A stretch of DNA of 64,000 bases, taken from contig NZ_JSYM01000005.1 in NCBI RefSeq assembly GCF_000812945.1, forward strand, positions 124,001 through 188,000, given 5' to 3'. Below the pieces are notes generated by a model that had not been told where the DNA came from, ran no database searches, and worked only from the letters and a program-made list of their open reading frames with translations. The position numbers were made by a program, and so were the translations under genes. Every line of letters starts with the position of its first letter. The first letter of the stretch is position 1. Positions 41,402 through 51,337 of this stretch are shown piece after piece. The stretch is from Flavobacterium sp. AED. GTDB taxonomy: Bacteria > Bacteroidota > Bacteroidia > Flavobacteriales > Flavobacteriaceae.

Positions 41402-41899
41402 TTATTTATTTGAACTTGTGTACTCATTATCTGTTACCGCTTCTAACCAAACAGGCGTACCGTTTTGAGTATTTGTAATAGCTACTTGAACAAATGCTGC
41501 GTCAATACTTGCACCATGCCAATGCACAATGTTAGGCAGACATTTAATTACATCCCCTTTTCGAAGTACTTTTATAGGTTGCCCTTTTTCCTGATAATAT
41601 CCAACTCCATCGGTTACCAACAAAATTTGTCCGCCCGGATGCAGATGCCATTTTGTTCTTGCTCCAGGTTCAAAGGTTACATTTCCTACTGAGGTTGGAT
41701 TAAGACTATCAGCAGCTATCAGTATTTGTAAATAAGCCGTACCTGTAAAATTATCATTGGTAATTTTTTCTCCTTTGGGGAAAAGGATTGATTTTTGTGA
41801 TGCTTTCTCTGTTGAAAGTGTTGCTTTTTTTTGTGCTTTGCAAGAAAAAGCAAACACTCCCATAAGAAATATTCCTGCCATGTTTTTAAGTTTCATCAT
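41402..41899 (-). CDS. Exported cupin-domain lipoprotein
   Basis: A 165-residue cupin. The N-terminus MMKLKNMAGIFLMGVFAFSCKAQ carries a lipobox (AFSC). The cupin barrel has motif 1 FEPGARTKWHLHPGGQILLVTDG (metal histidines, with Glu/Gln position occupied by Q) and motif 2 LPNIVHWHGASID. This conserved-barrel cupin type occurs with flavodoxin, carboxymuconolactone decarboxylase and aldo/keto reductase genes elsewhere. It is the last gene of the accessory operon, eight bases after the dienelactone hydrolase-like gene. Catalytic role unknown. Confidence 0.85.
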   Translation of the reverse strand: MMKLKNMAGIFLMGVFAFSCKAQKKATLSTEKASQKSILFPKGEKITNDNFTGTAYLQILIAADSLNPTSVGNVTFEPGARTKWHLHPGGQILLVTDGVGYYQEKGQPIKVLRKGDVIKCLPNIVHWHGASIDAAFVQVAITNTQNGTPVWLEAVTDNEYTSSNK

Positions 41900-41907
41900 T
41901 TTAAACG

Positions 41908-42969
41908 TTAAAGATTAGTTTGATAAAAATTCACCAATTTATTTACCGCTTGCAATACGTATTCGGGTTTCCAATAGGTTTCTATATGAGTAGCTCCATT
42001 GATAAGAAATAGTTCCTTATTTTTTGCATTGGTAGCTTTGCTAAAAGCATCGTCCGTCATATAATAGCTGTCAGCTTTACTTCCTGCAATCATTAATAAT
42101 GGCTGGTTTATCAAGTCCATATTACTACTGGCATCAAACGTCATTAAATCCATAAGACTGCTCTTAGTGTATTTAAATGTGGAATTTGTATGAGCATGTG
42201 TTTTGCCGTAATACTCAAATCCTTCACGATATAAATCAAACGGTAGTGCTGCTATTTGTTTATCAGTGAGTTGCGTATCTCCCACATACATTATTTTACC
42301 GCCTGTAGCTTCTTGGGCACGAGCATCAGAAGCTTCTTTTAATCGTTCTTGGATAGTAGAAATTTGTGAATTCATAAACCCATTACGCCGTACTACACCG
42401 GAATTGAACATACTTAGTGTGGCAATTGCCTTAAATCGTTTATCTGATTGGGCCACCTTTAAAGAATAACCACCGCCGCCACAAATTCCGAGTAATCCAA
42501 GTCTTGAAATATCGACCCCTTTATATTGAGTAATAAAGTCAGCCATTGCGTATATATCTTCAATTCGGTTTGCCGGTTTATCTACATTACGAGGTTCTCC
42601 GCCGCTACCGCCTTGATAGGCTGCATCTGCAGTAATGGTAATATAACCTTTTTCTGCTAATCGTTGTGCATATAACCCTGCCACTTGTTCTTTTACACCA
42701 CCATTAGGATGAGCAATAACTAATGTAGGATATTTTTTTGATGAGTCAAAGTTAGCAGGTGTGTAAATATTAGCAACTATTGTAATCTCTTTAATTTTAT
42801 AGTTGACGGGATGAATGTTTACTTTTTCCTTTACATTTTCTGTAATAGCTCCCTCATATACTAAGGTATATGGATTTTGCTTTCGTTCTATTTGAGTAGT
42901 TTGTGCACTAGACATCTGTACAGTTATTATTGAAATTATTAATATGATTATTGATGCTATTTTTTTCAT
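41908..42969 (-). CDS. Exported alpha/beta hydrolase, dienelactone hydrolase-like
   Basis: A 353-residue alpha/beta hydrolase with signal peptide MKKIASIIILIISIITVQMSSAQ. Oxyanion region TLVIAHPNGGVKEQ, and nucleophile elbow LGLLGICGGGGYSLKVAQS, where the nucleophile position is cysteine as in dienelactone hydrolases, not serine. The acid lies in LLMIAGSKADSYYM and the histidine in INGATHIETYWKPEY. Substrate unknown. Operon member, upstream of the cupin gene. Confidence 0.83.
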   Translation of the reverse strand: MKKIASIIILIISIITVQMSSAQTTQIERKQNPYTLVYEGAITENVKEKVNIHPVNYKIKEITIVANIYTPANFDSSKKYPTLVIAHPNGGVKEQVAGLYAQRLAEKGYITITADAAYQGGSGGEPRNVDKPANRIEDIYAMADFITQYKGVDISRLGLLGICGGGGYSLKVAQSDKRFKAIATLSMFNSGVVRRNGFMNSQISTIQERLKEASDARAQEATGGKIMYVGDTQLTDKQIAALPFDLYREGFEYYGKTHAHTNSTFKYTKSSLMDLMTFDASSNMDLINQPLLMIAGSKADSYYMTDDAFSKATNAKNKELFLINGATHIETYWKPEYVLQAVNKLVNFYQTNL

Positions 42970-42994
42970 TTCTTTTATTTTAAAATTATTGAGC

Positions 42995-43729
42995 CTATCT
43001 GTTTTTCAACACTTCGTTTACAACTTCTTTTGCAGCTTTAGTTTTCTTTTTACCTATGATTGGTTTTATTACGTCTATAAATTCTTTCAACTGTTCAGGC
43101 GATATACCTACATTGAGAGAAATTGACAAATGCCCCTTTAGCATTGGTTCAGCATTACCAATCGTACTGATAACAGAAATCGTAACTAATTCTCTTTGAG
43201 TGTAGGTTAAAATATCTCTTTCAAAAATAGCTGCAAATAAGTGTTCTTTTAAAAAGGTATCTATTACCGGTGCAAAAGCGGAATATCCTGTAAGCGTATC
43301 CGATTGTGGCGTTTTGGTAAGTTGTTCCAAAATATTTTTACCTCTTTCGTATTTATTACCCTCTTCTTTGATGGGAGAAGCTTCTTTGCCAGGTTCATCG
43401 ATAATACCTTTTGCTTTTCGTTCGTTAAGCACTTCCATAAAAATTTGCAATCCTCTGATACTCCTTGGAAAACCGCAATAGGCATAGGTATGGACCAATA
43501 CTTCTTTTACTTCATTCACGGTAAGTCCAGCTTCAAGACCTATGTTTAACGCTAATTTTAGTTTGACTAAATCACCTTTTGCTGTAAGTGATGCAATAGT
43601 TATAATGCTTTTTTCCTTTGCACTTAAATTGCTGTCTATAATGGTCATCTGATTTGCTTTAGCGTAATTAGGAAACAAAGCAGTGCTTACTATAATCACT
43701 ATAAAATTGAAAATTTTAAAACCCTTCAT
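42995..43729 (-). CDS. Exported carboxymuconolactone decarboxylase family protein, two-domain
   Basis: A 244-residue protein: signal peptide MKGFKIFNFIVIIVSTALFPNYAKAN, then two CMD/AhpD-like helical domains. Domain 1 (about 30-110) has VNEVKEVLVHTYAYCGFPRS; domain 2 (about 140-235) has RELVTISVISTIGNAEPMLKGHLSI with the conserved histidine. Only one cysteine is present and no CxxC, so peroxidase activity like AhpD is unlikely; the gamma-carboxymuconolactone decarboxylase fold is a better parallel. An earlier in-frame ATG at 43759 would add a charged stretch before the signal peptide. Confidence 0.83.
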   Translation of the reverse strand: MKGFKIFNFIVIIVSTALFPNYAKANQMTIIDSNLSAKEKSIITIASLTAKGDLVKLKLALNIGLEAGLTVNEVKEVLVHTYAYCGFPRSIRGLQIFMEVLNERKAKGIIDEPGKEASPIKEEGNKYERGKNILEQLTKTPQSDTLTGYSAFAPVIDTFLKEHLFAAIFERDILTYTQRELVTISVISTIGNAEPMLKGHLSISLNVGISPEQLKEFIDVIKPIIGKKKTKAAKEVVNEVLKNR

Positions 43730-50228: not shown

Positions 50229-50396
50229 GATTCTTTAATTTTATGGTTTTTATAAATTTCCCAAGTGATTAGGATAACTTATACTACAATGCAAATTTCC
50301 GATCTGATGAGAAGGTTTTTGGTATATGGATTACGGATTGTTCTACCAATATTACTTATTGTGCTTACTATATGGTAATTGATATATCTAAATACA

Positions 50397-50404
50397 TAAA
50401 TTTG
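50397..50404 (+). promoter_or_regulatory. -7 box TAAATTTG of the AraC regulator gene
   Basis: Plus-strand TAAATTTG with a TTG at 50379-50381 (spacing 15, slightly short). Transcription would start near 50410, which favours the ATG at 50426 as the start codon. Confidence 0.45.
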
Positions 50405-50425
50405 TATTATAAAATGAAAATTATC

Positions 50426-51337
50426 ATGAACAAAGTAGTCAAGTTTAATACAATTAGTGAATATAATGCATTTAACAATTGCGAAACGTTACATCCATTA
50501 ATAAGTGTTATTGATTTTTCAAAAGCAAACGAAAGATCATGGGGTGGCGAAAAGACTGTTCGAATTTATTATGGCTTTTATTGCATCTTTTTGAAAGATA
50601 TAAAATGTGGTGATCTGCGTTATGGTTGTAATTACTATGACTATCAAGAAGGTACATTGGTTTTTGCTGCGCCAGGTCAAATAATGGAAGTAGAGACTGA
50701 TGGTAAAGTATATCAACCAAAAGGATATGCCTTAGTGTTTCATCCTGATTTAATACATGGTACTTCTCTTTTTAAAAGCATGAATGATTATAATTTTTTC
50801 AGTTACAATGCAAATGAAGCACTGCATTTATCAGAACGCGAAAGACAAATTGTTTTAGACTCTTTTTCAAAAATCCACTTAGAATTGCAACTTGGAGTTG
50901 ATAAGCATAGTAAGAAACTTATTGCTTCAAATATCGAATTGTTTTTAAATTATTGCGAGCGATTTTATGATAGACAATTTATAACGAGAGAAAATATTAA
51001 TAAAGGAATATTAGAAAAATTTGAAGAAGTGCTAAATACCTATTTCACTTCTGATAAACCAGGTACTATTGGGCTTCCATCAGTTGCCTATTGTGCTGAT
51101 GAACTACATTTGTCAGCCAACTATTTTGGTGATTTAATAAAAAAGGAAACAGGTAAATCTGCTCAAGAATACATTCAAATTAAAATAATTGATATAGCAA
51201 AAGACAAAATTTTAGTAGATAATTTGACCGTAAACGAAATCGCTTATGAGTTGGGCTTTAAATACCCTCAGCATTTTTCTAGATTGTTTAAACAACGAGT
51301 AGGGTATACTCCTAATGAATATAGAAGTTTGAATTAA
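50426..51337 (+). CDS. AraC family regulator of the accessory operon
   Basis: A 303-residue regulator, divergent from the operon. The N-terminal part is a cupin-like sensor (HPLISVIDFSKANERSWGG, GTLVFAAPGQIMEVE, GYALVFHPDLIHGTSL) and the C-terminal 100 residues form a double HTH: SVAYCADELHLSANYFGDLIKKETGK and LTVNEIAYELGFKYPQHFSRLFKQRVGYTPNEYR. This type in other bacteria controls adjacent oxidoreductase genes in response to reactive electrophiles. The start MNKVVKFNTISEY was chosen from the promoter position; ATGs at 50372 and 50414 are in frame. Confidence 0.88.
   Translation: MNKVVKFNTISEYNAFNNCETLHPLISVIDFSKANERSWGGEKTVRIYYGFYCIFLKDIKCGDLRYGCNYYDYQEGTLVFAAPGQIMEVETDGKVYQPKGYALVFHPDLIHGTSLFKSMNDYNFFSYNANEALHLSERERQIVLDSFSKIHLELQLGVDKHSKKLIASNIELFLNYCERFYDRQFITRENINKGILEKFEEVLNTYFTSDKPGTIGLPSVAYCADELHLSANYFGDLIKKETGKSAQEYIQIKIIDIAKDKILVDNLTVNEIAYELGFKYPQHFSRLFKQRVGYTPNEYRSLN

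Follow-up and report, generated by a model that had tools for sequence, protein, structure and literature searches.

A candidate AraC-controlled cassette of exported enzymes and its operator-like motif in Flavobacterium and other Bacteroidota

The known AraC-linked response of the DkgA type is the aldehyde response of Escherichia coli, that of YqhC, YqhD and DkgA (PMC5297802), for which the part of that account drawn on here describes a regulator of the AraC family lying divergently beside a DkgA-type aldo/keto reductase (AKR), and describes no export. The same arrangement is found in a 64,000-nucleotide (nt) stretch of DNA from Flavobacterium sp. AED (contig NZ_JSYM01000005.1, positions 124,001 to 188,000), the whole of which we refer to as the window. 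Here a co-oriented gene set on the − strand (41402–50228) encodes a cupin, a dienelactone hydrolase-like (DLH-like) α/β-hydrolase, a carboxymuconolactone decarboxylase-like (CMD-like) protein, a flavodoxin, a SulE-like α/β-hydrolase, a carboxylesterase, two NTF2-like proteins and two AKRs, and a divergent gene encodes an AraC-family regulator; this layout, as given in the original prediction, was borne out by the open reading frames (ORFs) and by Pfam and equivalog profiles. The set contains no YqhD-like gene, and its DkgA-like reductase, which is 43% identical to DkgA, misses the DkgA equivalog cut-off of 425 with a score of 277.9 bits.

Two further systems invite comparison. The ECF41-COE loci (PMC3426412) likewise place CMD or oxidoreductase genes under a dedicated regulator, four of them with cupin neighbours; in the portion of that study used here the regulator is a sigma factor, whereas here it is of the AraC family, and it serves one target gene or operon. 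The third system concerns the flavodoxin. In the part of a 2024 study that we draw on (PMC11334425), extracytosolic flavodoxins are flavinylated through an insertion after strand 1, while cytosolic ones are unflavinylated. The ApbE-flavinylated Flavodoxin_4 proteins of that study share the Pfam family (PF12682) and an extracytosolic location with the proteins described here, but they carry the inserted loop, which is absent from all 78 of the 78 orthologues considered below, nearly all of which have an export signal. No description of exported oxidoreductases and hydrolases as a set linked to AraC was found in the open-licence literature, a coverage that takes in few subscription journals, and to this extent the set is, as predicted, undescribed. 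In our view the regulon and the pattern of export, both read from sequence, are the firm part of what follows.

The operator-like motif and its regulator

Alignment of 14 Flavobacterium loci revealed a conserved block in the gap between the AraC gene and the operon. The block holds an operator-like motif of 37 nt (50320–50356, − strand) with two GTAAT repeats, and the 21 bp between these repeats is the spacing known for AraC-type half-sites. Downstream of the motif, a CGGAAATTTG block (50292–50301, − strand), conserved in the alignment of the 14 Flavobacterium regions, is a candidate −7 region of the promoter.

The scan for the motif covered 80 named loci, chosen as the top 80 among 493 relatives of the flavodoxin; nearly all belong to Bacteroidota. 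With at most six substitutions it occurs at 82 sites in 58 of the 80 loci and with at most seven at 104 sites in 66 loci, compared with none in five mononucleotide shuffles. Of these 104 sites, 99 lie on the + strand of their loci, which is the strand of the flavodoxin gene, and the sites stand at a median of 59 nt before the next ORF. The ORF behind the site is most often DkgA-like (42 sites), a flavodoxin (20) or an AKR (15), followed by a cupin (4), a CMD-like protein (3), the carboxylesterase (3), one of the NTF2-like proteins (NTF2-A; 3), a 2Fe-2S subunit (3), a molybdo-subunit (2), a protein with haem-c motifs (1), the SulE-like protein (1), a short-chain dehydrogenase/reductase (1) and others (2), with none within range at four sites. 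Across 398 genomes of the genus, a 36-nt pattern with at most three mismatches was found at 51 sites in 44 genomes and the reversed pattern at none. A site is present in 18 of the 20 genomes that carry the flavodoxin and in 18 of the 19 that carry the SulE-like gene, and in 15 of the 20 flavodoxin carriers it lies within 10 kb of that gene. The source genome (3.9 Mb) contains the full pattern once, at the site in the window. The motif is newly found in this work; that the site exists, is conserved and goes together with this AraC is evident from sequence, and the regulator would be expected to bind there.

The regulator gene (50426–51337, + strand; PF12833) belongs to an ORF that is longest from 50372, but comparison with homologues makes 50426 the more likely start. 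Two cysteines, Cys61 and Cys177, are near-invariant in an alignment of 62 rows. Promoter scans were uninformative both for sigma-70 (57 sites, 59.6 expected) and for the flavobacterial TAnnTTTG element (103 sites, 105.7 expected), and an Rfam scan of the window returned one tRNA and nothing else. We note separately that in one locus (L042, 4050–5349) the motif precedes a gene that begins, by eye, like a drug transporter of the major facilitator superfamily.

Export signals, the flavodoxin and the split reductase

Export was called with a home-made rule based on hydropathy, a basic n-region, a lipobox and the twin-arginine motif. Its threshold was fixed after two earlier versions had wrongly called 11 and 37 of 55 DkgA orthologues exported. 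The final rule calls one of 55 DkgA and one of 81 AraC homologues exported, as well as 12 of the 46 other ORFs of the window, several of which look genuinely exported or membrane-bound, and it overlooks the signal of 11 of the 78 flavodoxin orthologues although a lipobox-like cysteine can be seen there by eye.

In the window, the cupin and the flavodoxin are called lipoproteins, the DLH-like, CMD-like, SulE-like and both NTF2-like proteins are called Sec substrates, the carboxylesterase is called a lipoprotein (Sec is also possible), and the N-terminal piece of the split AKR is called a substrate of twin-arginine translocation (Tat), for which TatC is encoded in the source genome. Neither the DkgA-like AKR nor AraC is called exported, so that the one enzyme predicted to be cytoplasmic indeed carries no signal. 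Nine exported products had been predicted, and all nine score as such, but the Tat AKR is split and only eight are therefore intact.

The signals are conserved in most orthologues of the 80 loci. The rule calls export for 56 of 58 CMD-like, 46 of 48 SulE-like and 37 of 41 DLH-like proteins, for 47 of 51 cupins at an identity of at least 49% and 21 of 31 more distant ones, for 47 of 51 and 18 of 19 proteins of the two NTF2-like families (NTF2-B and NTF2-A, respectively), for all 15 carboxylesterases, for 67 of 78 flavodoxins and for 27 of 28 Tat AKRs at an identity of at least 64%, compared with 14 of 57 other AKRs. A counterpart on the chromosome of E. coli KH_005 is similar: its AKR and flavodoxin are called Tat and its cupin, CMD-like and SulE-like proteins Sec. 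For the DLH-like protein of KH_005 the rule gives no export call when the annotated start is used; the copy on the E. coli plasmid AR_0137, annotated from further upstream, has a Sec-like start by eye. Judged by these signals, export is the common state of the set in the 80 loci and not a local oddity of the window genome, and the idea that the enzymes were relocated specifically here is not supported. The contrast that had been drawn with cytoplasmic sets stands in part: in two haloarchaeal loci the AKRs and one cupin are signal-free by eye, but the flavodoxin there has a Tat lipobox signal. The Halorhabdus flavodoxin (L008, 8905–9588) is annotated from a late GTG, and its upstream ATG gives a clear signal of this kind.

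Export-type N-termini were also seen by eye in 12 of 13 flavodoxins of named records outside the 80 loci. They are of the lipobox type in Hymenobacter and Parabacteroides, of the Tat type in E. coli (two), Achromobacter and S. meliloti, of the Tat and lipobox type in Halorhabdus, Halomarina and Streptomyces, and Sec-like in Lactiplantibacillus (two) and Treponema; the Enterococcus protein, as annotated, shows no export-type N-terminus by eye.

The flavodoxin of the window (43761–44393, − strand; TTG start) scores 62.6 bits against PF12682 (cut-off 24), and its closest relatives are from Flavobacterium sp. 11 (93%) and F. psychrolimnae (90%). An AlphaFold model of the mature protein (mean predicted local distance difference test score 85.3) has its best PDB matches in 4ici and 3klb, the latter a complex with flavin mononucleotide (FMN), and the protein may well bind FMN. 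Strand 1 leads straight into the phosphate loop in this protein and in 78 of 78 orthologues, and the flavinylation motif was matched in none; both patterns were self-written. The sole ApbE match of the genome lies on contig C1, while the window is on C5, and an apbE homologue is found in one of the 80 loci. These flavodoxins form a class of apparently exported members without the flavinylation feature.

The Tat-type AKR is encoded in the window by two ORFs with a 4-nt overlap, the N-terminal piece at 48774–49325 and the C-terminal piece at 48193–48777 (both − strand). Relative to four Flavobacterium loci (L012, L013, L020 and L043), 16 nt are missing at the junction, which shifts the frame. 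The original prediction of a Tat-exported reductase is consequently not supported for this strain as far as a functional enzyme is concerned. Among 30 places compared (N-terminal half at least 64% identical), 29 have an uninterrupted reading frame and the twin arginine is seen in all 30, and the AKR orthologues retain Asp96, Tyr101, Lys126 and His171 (L012 numbering) in 29 of 29 cases. Given the 16-nt gap in comparison with intact relatives, the enzyme has probably been lost in the window strain and retained by its relatives. Programmed frameshifting was considered and judged unlikely because the 16 nt are absent in comparison with the four relatives.

Recurrence of the set and its possible function

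A neighbourhood search with the flavodoxin lipoprotein, as had been suggested, returned the same genes repeatedly. Around the flavodoxin, the 80 loci contain AraC in 68, cupin in 61, CMD-like in 57, DkgA-like in 56, AKR in 56 (N-terminal half; 55 for the C-terminal half), NTF2-B in 52, SulE-like in 47, DLH-like in 40, NTF2-A in 18 and carboxylesterase in 15 cases. By comparison, 46 other genes of the window were found in at most seven of the 80 loci, and 38 of them in none, with the low-complexity filter on in this control search and off in that for the module. The recurrence thus exceeds chance. Both this co-occurrence and the conserved export signals run counter to the outcomes that had been named as refuting the original prediction. 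Independently of how the 80 loci were chosen, within the 398 genus genomes the flavodoxin and the SulE-like gene occur together in 13, adjacent in 12 (Fisher p 2.3e-15, or 3.1e-14 without the genome of the window), each being present in about 5% of genomes, a patchy distribution. The SulE-like protein has matches in 89 plasmid records and the flavodoxin in 92, which is consistent with horizontal spread. A contig of an acidobacterial (Chloracidobacterium) metagenome-assembled genome (L053) carries flavodoxin, NTF2-like and Tat AKR genes and no operator motif.

We prefer to read the set as a conserved, horizontally spread, AraC-controlled cassette that detoxifies reactive carbonyl or ester compounds at the envelope, and we would give this reading about even weight. 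AraC would sense, possibly through its two near-invariant cysteines, a small reactive compound that is most likely a carbonyl, quinone-like or an activated ester or lactone, and AraC bound at the 37-nt site would switch on the operon and, in other strains, also units of flavodoxin, AKR or exported molybdo-enzyme genes headed by the site. Most of the products would leave the cytoplasm by the Sec, lipoprotein or Tat route, as their conserved signals suggest. Outside, cofactor-free or metal enzymes (the three hydrolases, the cupin and the CMD-like protein) would open esters, lactones and related bonds, and redox steps would fall to the FMN flavodoxin and, in relatives, to the Tat-exported AKR carrying NADP in its folded form. 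The cytoplasmic DkgA-like AKR would reduce whatever gets inside. The families and their intact active sites suggest these roles. As a joint label for the set, 'redox/hydrolysis system' is presumptive.

This reading rests on the chemistry of the families, on the molybdo-enzyme neighbours, on the lack of a recurrent uptake system and on the link of DkgA to aldehydes, as given in the portion of the YqhC work drawn on here (PMC5297802). Within the stretches fetched, 26 of the 80 loci encode a molybdopterin subunit whose start looks Tat-like, 20 encode a 2Fe-2S subunit and 16 a protein that has two CxxCH (haem-c) motifs and no Pfam match. In L078 (13058–15793) and similar loci the Tat-signal molybdopterin and 2Fe-2S subunits lie near the set, and six such genes, that for the haem-c-motif protein included, stand directly behind the operator. 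Such neighbours resemble exported aldehyde oxidoreductases, in particular the periplasmic PaoABC with its Tat-signal molybdo-subunit and 2Fe-2S subunit, and they are the best hint at carbonyl chemistry. The hint does not apply to the window strain: a homologue of the molybdo-subunit is found in only ten of 61 genomes of the phylum and, at the cut-off used, not in the source genome.

Several observations weigh against the detoxification reading. The 80 loci are not a random sample, the site is absent from 14 of them, and the motif count is partly circular because the motif was seen by eye in 14 of the same loci in which it was then counted. A shorter, looser form of the motif gives two sites in the source genome, of which one carries three mismatches, and the reversed control equals that number with two. 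Three of the 18 site-bearing flavodoxin carriers lack a site in the 10 kb around the flavodoxin, and 21 of the 44 site-bearing genomes have neither a flavodoxin nor a SulE-like gene at the cut-offs used. The regulator was rejected as a YqhC orthologue, the alignment being confined to the helix–turn–helix, with 30% identity over 80 residues. In addition to the broken Tat AKR frame of the window strain, a stop lies inside eight of the 89 AKR pairs of the loci used for comparison. Enzyme content ranges from one to nine of nine module families in the 65 loci of at least 20 kb, which makes a fixed pathway unlikely. Finally, the inducer, substrates and electron source are conjectural, and the reading does not account for how NADP(H) and electrons would be supplied outside the cytoplasm.

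We fetched 20 site regions from the 44 site-bearing genomes, 16 belonging to the 21 that lack both genes and four to others. In 18 of these regions the site has an orthologue of this AraC (at least 58% identity) as a neighbour, and in 18 it has a gene of the module; the region L112 has neither. This argues that AraC and the site are the constant part of the system, as far as sequence can tell, and the enzymes the variable part.

More tentatively, the set may belong to an unrecognised, horizontally spread envelope detoxification regulon of Bacteroidota, Proteobacteria and, in part, haloarchaea, built around an exported flavodoxin with non-covalent FMN. In Proteobacteria and haloarchaea the FMN would be loaded ahead of Tat export, and in Bacteroidota it would be acquired outside once the protein has passed through Sec. 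The flavodoxin would feed exported AKRs or molybdo-enzymes, and in Bacteroidota a single AraC subfamily and a single 37-nt operator, into which enzyme genes are swapped, would define the regulon. Should this be so, several phyla would place supposedly cytoplasmic metabolic enzymes at the envelope, and many genes annotated as aldo/keto reductase, flavodoxin or cupin would have to be re-read. The 37-nt site would be a handle on the inducer and hence on the chemistry. The exported flavodoxin would allow a direct test of flavin retention without a covalent link, against the view presented in the part of PMC11334425 cited here.

Periplasmic breakdown of exogenous aromatic esters, lactones or plant polyphenols as a carbon source, with AraC sensing a pathway intermediate, is a possible but rather unlikely function. 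The DLH and CMD families are named after aromatic catabolism, AraC proteins often control catabolic genes and loci exchange enzymes much as they might exchange substrates; yet no transporter family, SusC/SusD, TonB receptor or permease recurs by eye in the 45 most frequent ORF families of the 80 loci, the CMD-like protein scores 71 bits where a true decarboxylase requires 155.7 and the set lacks the steps that an aromatic pathway has in the cytoplasm. We consider it unlikely that the set is an envelope system against redox stress of the hypochlorite, quinone or disulfide type, in which the exported flavodoxin donates electrons for repair or scavenging and the rest is accessory. An exported FMN-type flavodoxin, the molybdo-enzyme and haem-c-motif neighbours of some loci and, in E. 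coli, an adjoining two-component system that scores above the cut-offs of the metal-responsive families TIGR01387 and TIGR01386, which have periplasmic sensors, would all suit such a role. Against it, no membrane electron donor recurs by eye among the commonest neighbours, the E. coli regulator falls below the HprR and CusR equivalog cut-offs and three hydrolases are ill-suited to redox repair. A loose assembly of genes gathered under one operator by horizontal transfer, with no joint function, is very unlikely, since the variable content, the patchy distribution and the broken copies in the window strain and E. coli LF82 that would favour it are set against families that recur far above control genes, one common operator and mostly export signals.

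Members of the set and the E. coli counterpart

The gaps between the genes (−4 to 63 nt) are consistent with a single, putatively co-transcribed operon, and the active-site residues of its enzymes are conserved across orthologues; all members lie on the − strand. The first gene (49377–50228) encodes the signal-free DkgA-like AKR (PF00248), with matches in 4mhb and 1vp5. Beyond the split AKR lie the two NTF2-like genes (47676–48155 and 47202–47642; DUF4440, PF14534) and the carboxylesterase gene (45578–47191; GTG start), which scores 385 bits against PF00135. The SulE-like or esterase-713-like hydrolase (44435–45514) aligns over residues 27–358 with the 8gol group, which we take to be SulE, and over residues 31–253 with 1qlw, 4q34 being a further relative. 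Ser213, Glu236 and His334 are invariant; similarity thus extends over the mature part, and ester cleavage is predicted.

The CMD-like protein (42995–43759; PF02627) lacks a conserved cysteine pair. It was rejected as an AhpD-type peroxidase, no cysteine column reaching 97% in 58 sequences and no conserved CxxC being found, and as the 4-carboxymuconolactone decarboxylase PcaC, whose equivalog cut-off of 155.7 it misses with 71.4 bits. The DLH-like hydrolase (41908–42969; PF01738 and PF02129), related to YcjY (5xb6) and PA2218 (2hdw), has invariant Cys163, Asp300 and His328. The cupin (41402–41899; PF07883) is kin to TM1010 (2f4p) and to the cupin hydroxynitrile lyase entry 4bif. Its His85, His87, Gln91 and His126, invariant in 52 of 52 sequences, line up with residues of 4bif that are presumably metal ligands. 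It scores 132.5 bits against the (R)-mandelonitrile lyase model NF049940, under the cut-off of 140, while the homologue from E. coli KH_005 scores 177.3 bits.

The KH_005 chromosome and plasmid AR_0137 carry the same cupin, CMD-like, flavodoxin, SulE-like, DLH-like, Tat AKR and DkgA-like genes, most with export signals; in KH_005 identity to the window is 70% for the DLH-like, 66% for the DkgA-like, 65% for the Tat AKR and 64% for the SulE-like protein. They differ in having a two-component system and a LysR regulator where Flavobacterium has AraC, in a flavodoxin exported through Tat and not with a lipobox, and in lacking NTF2-like and carboxylesterase genes in the annotated stretch. The 37-nt site is absent from L011, the one of the two E. 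coli loci (L011 and L093) that was scanned. Some part of the stretch is matched in 2175 of 5426 E. coli genomes, but 80% of it is covered in just three. In E. coli LF82 (L092) the set is decayed, with a frameshifted hydrolase, an internal stop in LysR and neither a flavodoxin nor a histidine kinase annotated. The set of KH_005 is interrupted by an inserted SIR2-family gene and an ATP-binding gene.

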